Assembly (NCBI RefSeq): GCF_002933275.1
Contig: NZ_PSSX01000017.1
Span: forward strand, 1 to 64,000
DNA: 64,000 nucleotides
Origin: Marinobacter maroccanus
Lineage (GTDB): Bacteria; Pseudomonadota; Gammaproteobacteria; Pseudomonadales; Oleiphilaceae
Direction of reading: 5' to 3'
Shown here: one piece after another, positions 10,971 to 19,313 of the stretch
Position numbering within the stretch: the first letter of the stretch is position 1
Layout of the letters: each line of letters begins with the position of its first letter
Notes under the pieces: generated by a model
The model's database searches: none
The model's input: the letters and a program-made list of their open reading frames with translations, nothing else
What the model was told of the DNA's origin: nothing
Translations under genes and position numbers: made by a program

Positions 10971-12719
10971 TTAGCGCGCCTCTTCCCAGGTTTTCAGCAG
11001 TTCATCATAGGCAACGGTCTTGCCCTGAGGCTTCTCGTTTGCCAGCTTCGGCTTGGGTGCACCGGGCTGGTCCAGCCAGTACTGCGCATCGCGCGGCTCG
11101 TTCAGCTTCGGACCACAAGTCGGCTGAACATTGGCACGCTCAAGGCGCTCCATGACCCGATCCTGGGCCTGGGCAAGGCCGTCGAGGGCTTCCTGAGGAG
11201 TAGCTTCACCACTGGCCGCCTGGGCAATGTACTGCCACCACAGCTGGGCCAGTTTCGGATAGTCTGGCACGTTGGTACCGGTCGGGGACCACTGCACACG
11301 GGCCGGGCTACGATAAAACTCCACCAGGCCGCCGAGCTTCGGAGCCATCTCAGTCATCGCCTCAGATTCGATGTCGGACTCGCGAATCGGAGTCAGGCCG
11401 GCAATTGTTTTCTCCAGAGATACGGTCTTGGATACGGTGAACTGGGCGTACAGCCAAGCTGCAAGGCGACGTTTCTCAGGCGTGGAATCCAGGAAAGTCC
11501 AGGAACCTACGTCCTGATAACCCAGCTTCATACCTTCTTCCCAGTAGGGCCCACGGGGAGACGGTGCCATGCGCCATTTGGGGGTGCCATCCTCATTCAC
11601 AACGGGCAGGCCATCCTTGATCATGCTCGCGGTAAAGGCGGTATACCAGAAGATCTGCTGGGCAACGTTGCCCTGGGCGGGAACCGGACCGGCCTCTGAA
11701 AAGGTCATGCCCTGAGCTTCAGGGGGCGCGTACTTTCGCAGCCAGTCCACGTATTTCGCAGTGGCATACACGGCAGCGGGACCATTGGTTGCACCACCCC
11801 GGCTCACGCTGGAGCCGACCGGGTGACACTCTTCAACCCGAATCCCCCATTCGTCTACCGGCAGGCCGTTGGGCAGGCCCTTGTCGCCAGCACCCGCCAT
11901 GGAGAACCAGGCATCGGTGAAACGCCAGCCCAGAGACGGATCCTTCTTGCCATAGTCCATGTGACCGTAGACGCGCTCACCGTCAATTTCCTTCACGTGA
12001 ACCGAGAAGAACTCGGCAATATCTTCGTAGGCTGACCAGTTAACCGGCACACCCAGATCATACCCGTAGATTTCCTTGAACTGCTTCTGCAGGTCTTCAC
12101 GTTCAAACCAGTCGGCCCGGAACCAGTATAGGTTGGCAAACTGCTGCGAGGGCAACTGGTAGAGCTTTCCGTCAGGCCCGGTAGTGAAATCGAGCCCGAT
12201 GAAATCATCGAGATCCAGGGTGGGCAGGGTGAGATCTTTACCGGCACCGTTCATGATGTCTTCAACGGCCACCACCTTTCCATAGCGGAAATGGGTACCA
12301 ATCAGATCCGAATCGTTCACGTAGCCATCGTAGATGTTGCGTCCGGACTGCATCTGGGTCTGGAGCTTCTCGATAACATCGCCTTCCTGAATCAGTGTGT
12401 GAGTCAGGTTGATCCCGGTGATTTCGGAAAAGGCCTTGGCCAGAACATTGGACTCATACTCATGAGTCGCTATGGTTTCAGAAACCACGTTGATGTCCAT
12501 GCCACGGAACTGCTCAGCGGCTTTGGTGAACCACTCCATTTCTTTGAGCTGTTCTTCCTTGCTCAGAGTAGAATTCTTGAACGCTTCATTAACCCACTTC
12601 TCAGCTGCCTCACTGTACTGATCGGCGCTGACATGCAGGCTTAAACCCATGCTGGCGACACCAACGGCGGCGCTGAGCAACAGGGCTCTCGGATATTTAT
12701 TGTTGTTGAACATATCCAA
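10971..12719 (-). CDS. glpV: Glycerol ABC transporter solute-binding protein GlpV
   Basis: This is the periplasmic receptor of the GlpSTPQUV glycerol importer, a system described in Rhizobium leguminosarum. The 582-residue product is long for an extracellular solute-binding protein, as is normal for GlpV. An N-terminal signal ends at LHVSADQ, and the body has the cluster 1 binding-protein pattern (for example VAVEDIMNGAGKDLTLP and GKLYQLPSQQFANLYWFRADWFE). It is the last gene of a six-gene set, separated from glpU by 216 bases that contain a GlpR-type palindrome. It may therefore be expressed partly from its own promoter. The assignment rests on the complete six-gene order and the flanking glpK, glpR and glpD. 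Confidence 0.88.
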   Translation of the reverse strand: MDMFNNNKYPRALLLSAAVGVASMGLSLHVSADQYSEAAEKWVNEAFKNSTLSKEEQLKEMEWFTKAAEQFRGMDINVVSETIATHEYESNVLAKAFSEITGINLTHTLIQEGDVIEKLQTQMQSGRNIYDGYVNDSDLIGTHFRYGKVVAVEDIMNGAGKDLTLPTLDLDDFIGLDFTTGPDGKLYQLPSQQFANLYWFRADWFEREDLQKQFKEIYGYDLGVPVNWSAYEDIAEFFSVHVKEIDGERVYGHMDYGKKDPSLGWRFTDAWFSMAGAGDKGLPNGLPVDEWGIRVEECHPVGSSVSRGGATNGPAAVYATAKYVDWLRKYAPPEAQGMTFSEAGPVPAQGNVAQQIFWYTAFTASMIKDGLPVVNEDGTPKWRMAPSPRGPYWEEGMKLGYQDVGSWTFLDSTPEKRRLAAWLYAQFTVSKTVSLEKTIAGLTPIRESDIESEAMTEMAPKLGGLVEFYRSPARVQWSPTGTNVPDYPKLAQLWWQYIAQAASGEATPQEALDGLAQAQDRVMERLERANVQPTCGPKLNEPRDAQYWLDQPGAPKPKLANEKPQGKTVAYDELLKTWEEAR

Positions 12720-12935: not shown

Positions 12936-13211
12936 TCACCCCCAGCGTAGTAACACCAGTAACCAGGCCACCGAGACAGCGAGCGCCACCCAAAGGGTGA
13001 TATCGCTGACTGCGAGGAAGGTCAGGTGTATATAAGCAGCGGAGAGCAATCCGATAAACAGCCGGTCACCACGAGTGGTGGCAATCGGCAGAAAGCCCTT
13101 TCTTTCGGTACATGGGGAGACAATTTCGTAAACCGTCATTACCGCCAGAATTCCCGCAATCACTGCAAAGAAGATGGCAACGGTCGGCGTCCAGTTCATC
13201 CAGGCAATCAT
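12936..13211 (-). CDS. glpU: Small membrane protein of the glycerol importer, GlpU
   Basis: This is a 91-residue integral membrane protein with three evident hydrophobic segments (residues about 8-28, 47-65 and 69-90). It matches the small DUF2160-type protein that accompanies glycerol ABC transporters as GlpU. The loop between the first two segments contains CTERKGFLPIATTRGDR. An AAGGAG site precedes the ATG, and the gene starts 11 bases after glpQ. Its biochemical role is not established; a structural or assembly partner of the permeases is a reasonable guess. Confidence 0.82.
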   Translation of the reverse strand: MIAWMNWTPTVAIFFAVIAGILAVMTVYEIVSPCTERKGFLPIATTRGDRLFIGLLSAAYIHLTFLAVSDITLWVALAVSVAWLLVLLRWG

Positions 13212-13222
13212 AAAACGTCTCC

Positions 13223-14029
<807 letters not shown>

Positions 14030-14039
14030 CACACTCCCC

Positions 14040-14906
14040 TTATTTTTCTTTGTCGGCGTGCGTAATGGCGGTAAAGAAGAGCCATGAAATCAGCAATACA
14101 ATGAGGAAGTAGATCAGCGAGAACGCAGCCGCGCGCCCCAGATCAAACTGCCCGATTGCCATGGTCGTCAGGGTCTGGCTCAGGAAGGTGGTGGAACTGC
14201 CAGGGCCGCCACCGGTGAGCACGAACGGCTCAATGTAAATCATGAAGCTGTCCATGAACCGCAGCAGCACTGCGATGATCAGCACACTCTTGAGCCTCGG
14301 GAGCTGGATATACCGGAATACCGCCCACTTCGAGGCGCGGTCAATTTCCGCCGCCTGGTAGAAAGCTTCCGGAATTGCCCGCAACCCTGAATAGCAGAGC
14401 AAGGCCACCAGCGGCGTCCAGTGCCAGACATCCATCAACAGGACCGTTAGCCACGCATCGAGGGTGTCGCCAGTGTAGTTGTAATCAATCCCCAACTGAT
14501 TGATGCCCCAGCCGAACAGACCGATATCGCCCCGGGCAAAGATCTGCCAGATGGTGCCAACCACGTTCCAGGGAATCAGCAGCGGAATGGCCAGCAGAAT
14601 CAGACAGAGCGAGCCTTTAATACCGGATTTCGGCATCATCAGGGCAACCCCGATACCCAGAGGTATCTGGATCAGAAGTACCGCTCCAGAGAATATGAAC
14701 TGACGAAGCAGGGAATCCTGCAGGCGCTCGTCGGTCAGCACCTCCTTGAACCATTCCGTGCCCACGAAGAACGCCTGGCCCGGGCCAAAAATATCCTGGA
14801 CCGAGTAATTCACCACGGTCATCAGGGGAATCAGCGCCGAGAAGGCAACGAGCAGAAACACCGGCAGCACCAGCCACCAGGCTTTGTTGTTTTGTACCTT
14901 TTGCAT
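14040..14906 (-). CDS. glpP: Glycerol ABC transporter permease GlpP
   Basis: This is an inner-membrane permease of the MalF/UgpA-like class. I chose the start at 14906 (MQKVQNNKAWW), giving 288 residues. The ATG shares one base with the glpT stop (TGATG), and a GGAGC site lies just upstream inside glpT. Hydrophobic spans begin at WWLVLPVFLLVAFSALIPL, and the EAA loop reads YQAAEIDRASKWAVFRYIQLP near residue 200. The one-base overlap implies translational coupling with the ATPase gene. Confidence 0.87.
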   Translation of the reverse strand: MQKVQNNKAWWLVLPVFLLVAFSALIPLMTVVNYSVQDIFGPGQAFFVGTEWFKEVLTDERLQDSLLRQFIFSGAVLLIQIPLGIGVALMMPKSGIKGSLCLILLAIPLLIPWNVVGTIWQIFARGDIGLFGWGINQLGIDYNYTGDTLDAWLTVLLMDVWHWTPLVALLCYSGLRAIPEAFYQAAEIDRASKWAVFRYIQLPRLKSVLIIAVLLRFMDSFMIYIEPFVLTGGGPGSSTTFLSQTLTTMAIGQFDLGRAAAFSLIYFLIVLLISWLFFTAITHADKEK

Positions 14907-16006
14907 CACTGTTGCTCCTGTACCAGGAATTCGTCCACATACAGCTTCAACCATTGCCTTGGGAACGAGAGATGAACCCTGCTGCCGATTGATGCGGCGA
15001 AGTCCTCGCTCTGCCGGACTTTCATTCTCTCGTGATCCAGCTGAACGGTAACGATCTTGTAGGTGCCGAGATCCTCCACGTCGAGTACCTCGGCCTCAAA
15101 GGTGTCATCTGAAGCGACCGAAGACACCTCGATGAACTCCGGCCGGATACCGATCTTGAGATTCGTGGATTTGGTTCGCTGAAGGATATCCACCTGCCAG
15201 GGCTCAAGTGCCACAACCGTGCCTCCGAAGCACACGCCCCGGGGACACCGCTGCACCTCAATGAGATTCATGCCGGGGCTGCCGATGAAGAACCCCACGA
15301 AGGTGTGATTGGGCTGTTCGAACAGCTCGGTTGGCGTACCGAACTGGACGATCTGCCCGCCGTACATCACGGCAATCTTGTCGGCAAAGGTGGAGGCTTC
15401 AAGCTGGTCGTGGGTGACATACACCATGGTGATGTCGAACTGTTCATGAATCTGCTTGAGCTTGCGGCGCAGCTTCCACTTGAGCTGCGGATCGATCACC
15501 GTCAGTGGCTCGTCGAACAGAATCGCCGAAACGTCTTCCCGCACCAGGCCGCGGCCCATGGAAACCTTCTGCTTCTCATCCGCGGTCAGGTTCTTTGCCT
15601 TCTTGTAGAGCTTGTCCTCGATTTCCAGGACTTCGGCGATCTCATGAACGCGGGCCTTGATCTTGGAGGCGGGCACCTTGTTGTTCTTGAGGGGAAACGC
15701 CAGGTTGTCGTAGACAGTCATGGAGTCGTAAATGACCGGAAACTGGAAGACCTGGGCAATATTTCTGTCTCGGGGAGACAGCTCATTGACACGCTTGCCG
15801 TCGAACAGGACATCGCCCTCGGAGGGCTGAACCAGGCCGGAAATAATGTTCAGCATGGTGCTTTTCCCGCAACCGGACGGACCCAGCAGCGCGTACGCCC
15901 CACCCTTGTGCCAGACGTGGTCGAGCTGACGGATGGCGTAATCGTCTGGGCTCTCGGGCATATCACTGTAACTGTGGGCGAGTGATTTCAATTGAATTTC
16001 AGCCAT
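14906..16006 (-). CDS. glpT: Glycerol ABC transporter ATPase GlpT (degenerate signature)
   Basis: This is a cytoplasmic ATPase subunit of the glycerol importer (366 residues, MalK-like with a C-terminal regulatory domain). The Walker A (GPSGCGKST, residues 42-50), Walker B (ILFDEP, 162-167) and H-loop (YVTHDQ) are normal. The signature motif, usually LSGGQ, reads LTADEKQ (140-146), and the D-loop reads TVID. Its partner GlpS has an intact LSGGQ but lacks the H-loop histidine. One composite ATP site should therefore be intact and the other defective. The gene overlaps glpS and glpP by one base on each side. The name is that of the ABC component, not the glycerol-3-phosphate antiporter. Confidence 0.88.
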   Translation of the reverse strand: MAEIQLKSLAHSYSDMPESPDDYAIRQLDHVWHKGGAYALLGPSGCGKSTMLNIISGLVQPSEGDVLFDGKRVNELSPRDRNIAQVFQFPVIYDSMTVYDNLAFPLKNNKVPASKIKARVHEIAEVLEIEDKLYKKAKNLTADEKQKVSMGRGLVREDVSAILFDEPLTVIDPQLKWKLRRKLKQIHEQFDITMVYVTHDQLEASTFADKIAVMYGGQIVQFGTPTELFEQPNHTFVGFFIGSPGMNLIEVQRCPRGVCFGGTVVALEPWQVDILQRTKSTNLKIGIRPEFIEVSSVASDDTFEAEVLDVEDLGTYKIVTVQLDHERMKVRQSEDFAASIGSRVHLSFPRQWLKLYVDEFLVQEQQ

Positions 16007-17100
16007 CAGACAGACCCTCCTGAAACCTGGGACGGTGTGTGCACCAGTTGTTCGTTGTTGTCGAAGACGAACAGTTTGTTGATCGGCAAGTACACCTTGA
16101 CTGGTGAGCCTGTGTGGTACTGATGCACGCCCATCAACTGCAAGACCATTTCGAAGTGACTGTTCTCCACATGCATGAAGGTTTCAGAACCACTGATTTC
16201 GCTAAGCTCTACCTCCATGGACATTTCCAGATCATCGTCGCTGGTAGGTACCAGGCCGATATGGCTGGGCCGGATCCCGAACCAGTAATCACCCGGTTGA
16301 AGCTTCGCCAGCTCCTGAGTCAGCGCGTGGTGTGAATATTCGTCGAAGGTCACTTCGGTTTCAGAAACACGCCCGCGAATCATGTTCATCGGGGGTTCAC
16401 TGAACAACTGTGCAGCGAGGGTGTTCACGGGGGCGCGGTAGACATCCATAACCGGGCCGGTCTGAACGACCTGGCCTTCGTGCAACAACGTGGTTGTGCC
16501 ACCGAGCGCCAGAGCTTCATTGGCCTCTGTGGTTGCGTACACCGCTATGCACTGTCGCTCCCGGAACAGATCCCGCAGTTCCGCCCTGAGCTCTTCGCGG
16601 AGCTTGTAGTCAAGGTTGACCAGAGGCTCATCGAATAACACCAGGGTGGCATCCTTCACCAGCGCCCGGGCCATGGCGGTTCGCTGCTGCTGGCCACCCG
16701 ACAGTTCCAGCGGGTAGCGCTTGAGCAGGGGATCAATCCGAAGCATGGACGCGGTTTCTTTCACCCGGCGATCAATCTCGGACTCCGTCATCTTCGCCAG
16801 CCGCAGCGGTGAGGCGATGTTTTCGTAGACGGTCAGATTGGGGTAATTGATGAACTGCTGATAGATCATCGATATGTTGCGGCTCTGCACGCTCTGCCCT
16901 GTGACGTCCTCACCGTTATAGATCAGACGGCCGCTATCAGGCTTGTCCAGCCCGGCCATCAGTCGCATCAGCGAAGTCTTTCCGGCCAGTGTCCGGCCGA
17001 GCAGAACGTTAAAGGAACCTGCCTCAAAGGTGAGGTTGGCATCCCGGATATAGTCGACACCGTCGACCTCACGGGAGAGGTTCTCCAGTGTTAAGGACAT
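16006..17100 (-). CDS. glpS: Glycerol ABC transporter ATPase GlpS (atypical P-loop)
   Basis: This is the second cytoplasmic ATPase of the glycerol importer and the first gene of glpSTPQUV (364 residues). The P-loop reads GRTLAGKT (35-42): the GxxxxGKT frame is kept, but the middle glycine is Leu. The signature LSGGQQQR (133-140) and Walker B VLFDEP (154-159) are normal. At the H-loop, where relatives have YVTHDQVEA, this protein has YATTEANEA, so the switch histidine is replaced by Thr. These changes face the degenerate signature of GlpT in the predicted dimer. An AAGGAAA site precedes the ATG. Confidence 0.88.
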   Translation of the reverse strand: MSLTLENLSREVDGVDYIRDANLTFEAGSFNVLLGRTLAGKTSLMRLMAGLDKPDSGRLIYNGEDVTGQSVQSRNISMIYQQFINYPNLTVYENIASPLRLAKMTESEIDRRVKETASMLRIDPLLKRYPLELSGGQQQRTAMARALVKDATLVLFDEPLVNLDYKLREELRAELRDLFRERQCIAVYATTEANEALALGGTTTLLHEGQVVQTGPVMDVYRAPVNTLAAQLFSEPPMNMIRGRVSETEVTFDEYSHHALTQELAKLQPGDYWFGIRPSHIGLVPTSDDDLEMSMEVELSEISGSETFMHVENSHFEMVLQLMGVHQYHTGSPVKVYLPINKLFVFDNNEQLVHTPSQVSGGSV

Positions 17101-17432: not shown

Positions 17433-19313
17433 ATGAGAAAAAACGAATATTCGGATTATCGAAGCGTTATTGCCGATTCGTGGAATCGCTGCATTGCCTG
17501 GGGCCTTGATCACGATCACGAGCCGGCACCGCTGATGCCGGAATCGGCCCGGCTGGAGGAAATAAACCGCCAGTACATTGAGCTGCTCTCGGTAACCGAG
17601 GCCGAAGTACTGCCTTACTACCGGAACGTACTTTCCAACAGCCGCTGCCTCATTCTGCTCGCCGATCAGCACGCAACGGTGCTGAACAGCTGGGGCGATG
17701 AACGCATCACCGAGACCCGCCTGAAGCCCTGGTTCCAGACCGGCGCAAACTGGCAGGAGCAGAATTGCGGCACCAACGCCATCGGAACGTCGATTGCTGT
17801 CGGCGCGCCTGTACAGATTCAGCGAAACGAACATTTTCTGAAAACAAACCGAAGCATCATTGGCTCCGCAGCACCTATTTTCGACGCCCACAGGCAGATT
17901 GCCGGTGTTCTCAGTGTGTTCAGCGACGCCTACCTGCCCCAGGCACACACCCTGGGCATGGTTCGGCTGCTTTCCCAGTCGGTGGAAAACCGCCTCATCA
18001 ACCGTCAGTTTGGCCCGGATCATTTCCAGATCACCCTGAATACCACGGCGGACAACTTCGACAGCCCCTGGTCGGGCATCCTGATGTGCGATGATTCCGG
18101 CCGGGTCATAGCGAGCAACCAGCGGGCGGACCAGTTGCTGGGAATAAATACCGTTGAGGCCCGTCTGGATGAGCTATTTACCGGCCACCGAAACCACATT
18201 CTGGGGCATTCTGAGACCGAAAACCTGCAGCTGACCACCCGAAGCAAGGTACGACTGAGCGCCCGGATCAAGCGCCCGACAAGGCTTGGCAATAACGCAG
18301 CACAGGCAGAGCCTTCGCCGCTGCCAGACGAGGTCAGGCAAGCCGATGCGTTTCTGGGCATCGACAACCTCGAGTATGGCGACTCAGCCGTCAAGCGGTG
18401 CGCCACACAGAGTCTCAAAGTCCTGCAGCGGGGTGTACCGGTGCTTATCACGGGCGAGACAGGGGTCGGCAAGGAAGTTCTGGTCAAGGCACTTCATCGG
18501 GCATCCCACCGCAAGGATCAGCCTCTGGTGGCGGTTAACTGTGCGGCGATTCCACCGGAACTGGTTGAATCGGAACTGTTCGGTTACGAAGCTGGCGCAT
18601 TTACCGGCGCCCGGGCGCAGGGCTCCCTGGGGTTCCTTCGAAAGGCCCACAAGGGCATTCTGTTTCTTGATGAGATTGGCGAAATGCCCCTTTCGGCACA
18701 GTCCCGGCTGCTTCGGGTACTGCAGGAACGGGTCGTTACCCCGGTGGGCTCAACTGACAGTGTTCCTGTCGATATTTTGCTGGTTACCGCGACCAACCGG
18801 CCTCTGACCTCACGTATCGACAACGGCCATTTCCGGGCGGATCTCTACTACCGCATTAATGGCCTTTGCGTGGAACTCCCTGCCCTTCGGAACCGGGCCG
18901 ACAGGTTGCCCCTGATACAGACCCTCTATTCGCAGCACCGGGACCCCGGACAGTCAGAGTATCTATCTCCCAAAGTACTTTCCGCCCTGGAGAACCACCC
19001 GTGGCCAGGCAACATTCGGCAACTGGTGAATGTGTTGCGGGTGGCGATCGCGATTGCAGACGGGGAGGACGTGCAGGTCTGGCACTTGCCGGAAGACTTT
19101 CTCGCGGAATTCGAGGCCAGGGCCGGTGAGGAGTCCGAAACAGCTGTCCTGGAGCCAGGTTTCGCCGACGTTGAGGTGGAAGCGGAGGATACACTTGCCA
19201 GAACGCTCAAGGTCTATCGAAAATGCACAGGCAACGTATCTCAGGCAGCGAGAGAACTCGCCATTAGCCGCAACACTCTGTACAAGCGCCTGCGGGAATT
19301 GGGAGTTCGGTGA
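17433..19313 (+). CDS. Sigma-54-dependent transcriptional activator, AcoR/DhaR type
   Basis: This is a 626-residue enhancer-binding protein. The N-terminal third resembles the GAF sensor of AcoR-type regulators (ADSWNRC near residue 15, NCGTNAIGT near 112). A central AAA+ domain has Walker A GETGVGKE (near 342), the sigma-54 contact loop GAFTGA (near 388) and Walker B ILFLDEIGEM (near 410). The end is a Fis-type helix-turn-helix (GNVSQAARELAISRNTLYKRL). It is divergent from glpS and followed by the convergent glpK. Related DhaR proteins control dihydroxyacetone or glycerol utilisation, so control of the neighbouring glycerol genes is plausible. The ligand and targets are not visible, and alcohol or acetoin sensing remain alternatives. 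Confidence 0.85.
   Translation: MRKNEYSDYRSVIADSWNRCIAWGLDHDHEPAPLMPESARLEEINRQYIELLSVTEAEVLPYYRNVLSNSRCLILLADQHATVLNSWGDERITETRLKPWFQTGANWQEQNCGTNAIGTSIAVGAPVQIQRNEHFLKTNRSIIGSAAPIFDAHRQIAGVLSVFSDAYLPQAHTLGMVRLLSQSVENRLINRQFGPDHFQITLNTTADNFDSPWSGILMCDDSGRVIASNQRADQLLGINTVEARLDELFTGHRNHILGHSETENLQLTTRSKVRLSARIKRPTRLGNNAAQAEPSPLPDEVRQADAFLGIDNLEYGDSAVKRCATQSLKVLQRGVPVLITGETGVGKEVLVKALHRASHRKDQPLVAVNCAAIPPELVESELFGYEAGAFTGARAQGSLGFLRKAHKGILFLDEIGEMPLSAQSRLLRVLQERVVTPVGSTDSVPVDILLVTATNRPLTSRIDNGHFRADLYYRINGLCVELPALRNRADRLPLIQTLYSQHRDPGQSEYLSPKVLSALENHPWPGNIRQLVNVLRVAIAIADGEDVQVWHLPEDFLAEFEARAGEESETAVLEPGFADVEVEAEDTLARTLKVYRKCTGNVSQAARELAISRNTLYKRLRELGVR

Follow-up and report, generated by a model that had tools for sequence, protein, structure and literature searches.

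Complementary motif changes in the ATPase pair GlpS/GlpT of glpSTPQUV importers suggest one hydrolysing and one ATP-holding site

Introduction

An importer with two different ATPases, each with altered ATP-site motifs, raises the question of whether it works with two ATP sites or with one. Such a pair is encoded in Marinobacter maroccanus, in a stretch of 64,000 nucleotides (NCBI RefSeq assembly GCF_002933275.1, contig NZ_PSSX01000017.1, positions 1 to 64,000; hereafter the window) that contains a glpSTPQUV cluster. The two ATP-binding cassette (ABC) ATPases of the MalK class, GlpS (glpS, 16006..17100, minus strand) and GlpT (glpT, 14906..16006, minus strand), were described in an earlier note as carrying complementary defects that fall in one composite ATP site. 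Here we show that the motif asymmetry is conserved across the GlpS/GlpT family. Judged by their sequences, GlpS and GlpT of one importer would form an obligate heterodimer with two unlike sites, one hydrolysing ATP and the other holding it; we place the probability of this reading at about 0.8.

Motifs of the two ATPases

The motif readings of the earlier note were reproduced for both proteins. In GlpS, the signature LSGGQ (16690..16704, minus strand, as are all motifs below) and the Walker B motif LFDEP (16624..16638) with its catalytic Glu are intact. Walker A is GRTLAGKT (16975..16998), in which the middle Gly at position 4 is replaced by Leu and GKT is kept, and the H-loop is YATTE (16525..16539), with Thr in place of His. 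A third replacement, missed by the first reading, is the loss of the A-loop aromatic. The residue at what we take to be the A-loop position is Val12 (17065..17067), and Tyr17 (17050..17052) is a possible relocated aromatic. GlpT has intact Walker A (GPSGCGKS, 15860..15883), Walker B (LFDEP, 15506..15520) and H-loop (YVTHD, 15407..15421) motifs and a degenerate signature, LTADE(KQ), at 15575..15589. Its D-loop is VID (15491..15499).

Both proteins are MalK-fold CUT1 ATPases with an ABC domain and an OB/TOBE regulatory domain. Pfam ABC_tran was matched by both; OB_MalK and TOBE_2 scored above the cut-off in GlpT, and OB_MalK scored under it in GlpS. The UgpC model was the top NCBIfam match of each, under its cut-off. 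Single-chain AlphaFold2 models (mean predicted local distance difference test, pLDDT, 90.3 for GlpS and 89.2 for GlpT) matched MalK, SugC and related PDB structures. Among the 60 best solved chains listed per protein, none reached an orthologue-level score; the best scores were 221 and 234 bits, compared with at least 371 bits for GlpT relatives in the Pseudomonadota sample described below. Over 342 aligned residues, GlpS and GlpT are identical at 95 (28%). Among the matches listed, the highest-ranking named relative of GlpT was from Marinobacter sp. EhC06 (98% identity).

Motif conservation in relatives

GlpT relatives were sampled at E ≤ 1e-110 in 398 Pseudomonadota genomes and were found in 79, M. 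maroccanus included; GlpS adjoins GlpT in all 79 loci. To these were added named loci (80 kept from at least 590 relatives) and loci from Thermodesulfobacteriota, the phylum of a Desulfuromusa metagenome-assembled genome (MAG), with 9 of 198 sampled genomes. Identical sequences were dropped (GlpT from 175 to 163, GlpS from 174 to 161, comparators from 63 to 58), and the motif counts rest on an alignment of 161 distinct GlpS and 163 distinct GlpT. A GlpT relative at E ≤ 1e-100 was also present in 230 plasmid records, a count of relatives and not of motifs.

The H-loop His was found in none of the 161 GlpS (Thr 154, Ser 5, Pro 1, Asn 1), and the signature SGG in none of the 163 GlpT (TAD 110, SAD 33, others 20). 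The counterparts were kept throughout: SGGQ in 161/161 GlpS, and the H-loop His, Walker A GK[ST] and Walker B Glu each in 163/163 GlpT, with an H-loop identical to YVTHD in every case. Confinement of the changes to one sequence would, by the terms of the earlier note, have refuted it, and this is not what was found. H-loop loss in GlpS and signature loss in GlpT were found together in 156 of 156 distinct tabulated pairs from Pseudomonadota and Thermodesulfobacteriota, and GlpS SGGQ and GlpT His were both kept in all of them.

The A-loop position was aromatic in only 2 of 161 GlpS (Tyr or Phe), with Val in 150, and was Tyr in all 163 GlpT. Five residues past this position (+5), 153/161 GlpS have His, Trp, Tyr or Phe, and 161/163 GlpT have Ala. 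The D-loop is VID in 163/163 GlpT and NLD in 161/161 GlpS.

Walker A was less uniform. Position 4 in GlpS was Leu in 143, Gln in 9, Gly in 6, Ser in 2 and Ala in 1 (n = 161); the six with Gly come from L235, a deep pair, and from five pairs of the SPD type. The Gly change is therefore optional. To call the P-loop broken, as the earlier note implied, is too strong. The replacement of Gly by Leu is real in the window, but since Gly-Lys-Thr is intact in 161/161 GlpS the loop is altered rather than broken. Lys41, Thr42, Asp157, Glu158 and the Q-loop Gln were likewise kept in all 161.

Seven of the 163 GlpT lie outside the 156 pairs. In L099 and L165, the GlpS partner had been removed as an identical copy, and in L059, L067 and L087 the partners are present and were left unpaired because the open frames overlap (600-base pairing rule). 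The contig of L232 starts 237 bases ahead of GlpT, so that a GlpS neighbour is not visible. In L233 (2629-3703) GlpS is in two pieces, with a stretch of 177 N; this glpS may be broken, or the assembly may be poor. No GlpT without GlpS was found among the 163, L232 aside, where a neighbour cannot be seen. A Glaciecola MAG (L093) has a second, diverged GlpS copy at 358-1455, a few kb from its normal pair and beside a sigma-54-type regulator. The P-loop of this copy is GMRGRASGKT, with an insertion, and its H-loop residue is Asn.

As comparators we used 58 MalK-class ATPases from four genomes (G000, G398, G399 and G400). Removal of four in two-ATPase loci (L189, L194 and two in L199) left the 54 that are not known to lie in such loci, and all 54 were consensus at five elements: SGG, His, Walker A Gly, DE and the A-loop aromatic. 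The A-loop position was Tyr, Phe or Trp in 58/58, with Ala, Val, Ile, Thr or Gly at +5, and the D-loop was NLD or ALD in 53/58. Only three of the 58 departed from consensus at the signature, H-loop, Walker A Gly or Walker B motif, and each of these three comes from a further locus of Inquilinus limosus (G400) with two ATPases.

Assignment of the changes to one composite site

The definition of the composite ATP site given in PMC7756269 was the basis for assigning the changed motifs. By this definition the changes in the GlpS A-loop, Walker A and H-loop and in the GlpT signature come together in one site of a heterodimer, as the earlier note had proposed. The GlpT Walker site would be paired with the intact GlpS LSGGQ, and the GlpS Walker site with the degenerate GlpT signature. 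In such a heterodimer all consensus residues are present in the GlpT Walker/GlpS signature site. The other site would have the make-up of a degenerate site, with the signature changed in one nucleotide-binding domain (NBD) and catalytic motifs in the other. By motif only, GlpS/GlpT lack the two consensus ATP sites that mark the MalK class.

The GlpT D-loop would presumably also face the degenerate site.

The proposed mechanism is as follows. Site II, made of the GlpT Walker A, Walker B and H-loop with the GlpS LSGGQ, would hydrolyse ATP. Site I would set GlpS Walker A and B, together with a changed A-loop and an H-loop that lacks its His, against a GlpT signature that is mostly L[TS]AD. It probably still binds ATP, because Lys41, Thr42, Asp157 and Glu158 are invariant in GlpS, and hydrolysis there would be slow or lacking. 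Site I may then act as a clamp, as in ABC proteins of the TAP or CFTR type, and the new GlpS aromatic at +5 may stack on the adenine. One hydrolysing site with one clamp is the best reading of the motifs; we infer the formation of the heterodimer, the occupancy of its sites and the choice of the hydrolysing site.

The mechanism depends on pairing. GlpS and GlpT might instead form homodimers, or one of them might be a regulator or serve other permeases, and multitask ATPases have been described for type I importers (PMC7658222). We consider this very improbable. The two genes are adjacent in 79/79 loci and overlap in the window, where the glpS stop and the glpT start share one base in TGATG, and every one of the 156 pairs is complementary. 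Moreover, a GlpS homodimer would be without both His and a GlpT homodimer without both signatures. Neither would contain a complete site, so that, judged by the consensus, the heterodimer is the only form expected to work.

Tree of GlpS and GlpT

A tree that included 17 GlpS rows and 10 GlpT rows was built after exclusion of the alignment columns of Walker A, the signature and the H-loop. GlpS and GlpT each formed one clade (100/100 each), and both clades fell on the CUT1 side. A sister relation of the two was not recovered, in a tree whose bootstrap had not settled. Under midpoint rooting, L235, from the Thermodesulfobacteriota sample, branched off first within GlpS. This pair (L235:1498-3727) has GATGAGKT, VSGGQ and YATPE in GlpS together with LNAAD in GlpT. 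Its GlpS has the A-loop Tyr, Ala at +5 and the Walker A Gly, and the His is already gone. Together with the position of the branch, this state points to an order in which the H-loop and signature were altered before the other motifs, and L235 is possibly an intermediate state.

Two-ATPase operons outside the glp clusters

The three deviating comparators of I. limosus lie in operons that also have two CUT1 ATPases. Match lists, cut by E-value, were compiled for 11 genomes, eight of them picked for many or known matches and three as known glp holders. An adjacent pair was defined as two ATPase genes on the same strand and at most 200 bases apart, chosen by position without regard to motifs. At least 11 adjacent pairs were found, 6 of them glp and 5 others. 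Of the 11, 10 had lost a residue of the signature, H-loop or Walker B motif, as had 4 of the 5 non-glp pairs. The glp pair of G398 is absent from its match list because its GlpS fell under the E-value cut. For CUT1 ATPases across the class Alphaproteobacteria, up to 17 candidates per genome were scored among the matches listed, which does not amount to a survey; fuller lists were made for 8 genomes.

The non-glp asymmetric loci (L236, L237, L272, L273, L278, L279, L285, L287, L288 and L289) are from Alphaproteobacteria, and we refer to their subunits as S-like and T-like. In family II (L236, L272 and L273) the ATPase genes are 3.4-3.7 kb apart and so lie outside the 11 pairs; the S-like subunit has Pro for His and has lost the Walker A Gly, and the T-like signature is VSEGE, LAEGE or LGEGE. 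In family III (L237, L278 and L279) the S-like subunit has Asp for the Walker B Glu (DDP), Gln for His, and LSNGQ, and the T-like subunit keeps SGG and has Glu for the D-loop Asp and Glu in the Q-loop. The T-like signature is LSVNE in family IV (L287 and L289). Family V (L288) combines Pro for His and Asp in the Q-loop of the S-like subunit with LSASE and a D-loop Glu in the T-like subunit. In family VI (L285 and L281) the T-like signature is LTSGD or consensus. In families IV and VI the naming as S-like or T-like went by the signature or by the related subunit in the other locus, and members of families II and III beyond G400 are not independent counts because they were found by homology.

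GlpP-like and GlpQ-like permeases were present in 11 of the 11 non-glp loci that were read and a GlpV-like match in 7; a GlpU match was found in none of these 11 within the fetched stretch. A further locus, L283, has two consensus ATPases about 5 kb apart and is outside the counts. In the few Alphaproteobacteria examined, asymmetry seems to be frequent among CUT1 operons with two ATPases. The view of the earlier note that it is unusual for the MalK class fits the 54 consensus comparators and needs to be narrowed, since asymmetry recurs in two-ATPase operons of the same class.

In the best tree across operon families neither the S-like nor the T-like subunits formed one clade. Single clades were not rejected (approximately unbiased test, p = 0.149 for S-like and 0.088 for T-like); the asymmetric heterodimer may have had one old origin or several.

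Weighing one hydrolysing site against the alternatives

The reading of one hydrolysing and one ATP-holding site draws on the constant adjacency, the complementary pairs, the consensus comparators, partly conserved replacements and the TGATG overlap. It draws further on the MalK fold of both proteins, two permeases and two ATPases per cluster, the single clades, and the asymmetry of other operons.

Several observations weigh against it. Loss of the Walker B Glu has been called a hallmark of degenerate sites (PMC7544095), yet GlpS keeps this Glu in 161/161; a changed Glu is common and not universal, being absent from the ABCG5/G8 pattern (PMC7756269, section 7). The L281 pair (LSGGD/LSGGE) is consensus at the signature, H-loop, Walker A and Walker B, and two ATPases therefore do not force asymmetry. 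Two deviations in family III, the S-like LSNGQ and the T-like Q-loop Glu, fall on the other site. Entropies above the column median were found at GlpT signature positions 2 and 5 (1.53 and 2.10) and at GlpS Walker A position 2 (2.05), so that the altered site is constrained only in part. Covariation between GlpS Walker A/H-loop and the GlpT signature was scored by mutual information with average product correction (156 pairs, effective number 50). Five tested column pairs ranked in the top 0.5-4% and the other variable ones at 8-84%. The scores are not taken as support, because the top of the matrix looks phylogenetic and the signal seems to come mainly from five Gly/Ser/SPD pairs.

One alternative is that both sites hydrolyse. 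With the Walker B Glu, the Walker A Lys-Thr and the Q-loop Gln in place in 161/161 GlpS, Thr or Glu of the GlpS H-loop and Asp of the GlpT signature could substitute by other contacts, and the conservation of some substituting residues also fits a new active role. We regard this as unlikely. Several elements are changed in one site and all are kept in the other, and every degenerate site encoded in the human genome is stated to have a changed signature (PMC7756269, section 7).

Relaxed selection, with one redundant site decaying, would account for the variable positions, which include GlpS Walker A position 4 besides the three above, and for the greater divergence of the second GlpS copy in the Glaciecola MAG (L093). 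We consider it very improbable, given the residues that are conserved. The GlpT signature Asp is kept in 161/163 (entropy 0.18, and 0.42 for the Ala, with a column median of 1.21) and the GlpS H-loop Thr in 154/161 (0.51 versus a median of 1.61). GlpT Lys145 and Gln146 are invariant in alignments A1 (25 rows) and A5 (36 rows), and the +5 aromatic or His is present in 153/161 GlpS.

A broader proposal goes beyond one site that hydrolyses and one that holds ATP in GlpS/GlpT. Two-ATPase CUT1 importers might be a widespread, unnamed class of heterodimeric MalK-type transporters with one hydrolysing site and an early or repeated origin, in which the degenerate site is a maintained clamp and, in GlpS, the adenine pocket has been rebuilt by the moved aromatic. 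We give this proposal even odds.

Relation to known ABC proteins

Asymmetric sites are already known from ABC exporters (PMC7756269) and from fused importer ATPases (PMC11466899). In TAP, CFTR, Pdr5 and ABCG5/G8, as proposed for GlpS/GlpT, the lesions are split over two NBDs and meet in one composite site, and in several of them the signature and the H-loop are both affected (PMC7756269). These proteins belong to another transporter class and their Walker B Glu is often changed, whereas GlpS keeps it. RbsA and NupO are fused importer ATPases of which one site is called degenerate, a deviant signature included. They have two NBDs per chain and the second lacks the Walker A Lys, while GlpS and GlpT are separate proteins and keep the Lys (PMC11466899). 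The ATPases DppD and DppF of the E. coli dipeptide importer are heterodimeric; without DppA, DppF alone bound an ATP analogue, and with DppA two were bound (PMC12136057). In the accessible text of that paper no site of DppDF is called degenerate, beyond an alignment with the degenerate TM288. MalFGK2 and LpqY-SugABC, of the MalK/UgpC-type CUT1 importers, share the fold of GlpS/GlpT and form two identical sites, whereas GlpS/GlpT would form two different ones. No report of one-site asymmetry in MalK-class importers was found in a literature search that had most subscription papers outside its reach.

A MalK-class importer with one consensus site would allow one and two hydrolysis events per cycle to be compared directly in the same fold. 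GlpS/GlpT would also allow a separate importer origin of the exporter-type one-site design to be tested, and operon families that differ in the details of the asymmetry help to separate essential from incidental changes.

Gene neighbourhood and substrate

The remaining genes of the cluster are all on the minus strand: glpP (14040..14954) and glpQ (13223..14032), CUT1-type permeases (Pfam BPD_transp_1); glpU (12936..13211), a small DUF2160 membrane protein (Pfam DUF2160); and glpV (10971..12719), a solute-binding protein (Pfam SBP_bac_1). The two ATPases, two permeases, DUF2160 protein and solute-binding protein thus lie together beside glycerol genes, with glpK, a gene for a GlpR-type regulator, and glpD near in the window. 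Relatives of GlpP and GlpQ were found in 122 of 122 glp loci of at least 9 kb, and those of GlpU and GlpV in 121.

The glycerol importer glpSTPQUV was named in Rhizobium leguminosarum VF39, and the glycerol ABC transporter of Cupriavidus metallidurans (Rmet_2229-2234) is dispensable for growth on glycerol (PMC7912956). Both have the same gene set as the window, with glpR, glpK and glpD nearby (PMC7912956). The words 'signature' and 'Walker' are absent from that paper, and no statement on ATP-site motifs was found in its passages. Glycerol is probably also the substrate in M. maroccanus, as glpK, glpR and glpD lie alongside.

A gene for a sigma-54-dependent regulator (17433-19313), divergent, lies between glpS and glpK. 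Its top NCBIfam match was DhaR, under the cut-off of that model, and a gene near glpS in the Glaciecola MAG (L093) is similar to it in length. GlpV is listed with 582 amino acids and a TTG start, a length that seems large for a solute-binding protein.

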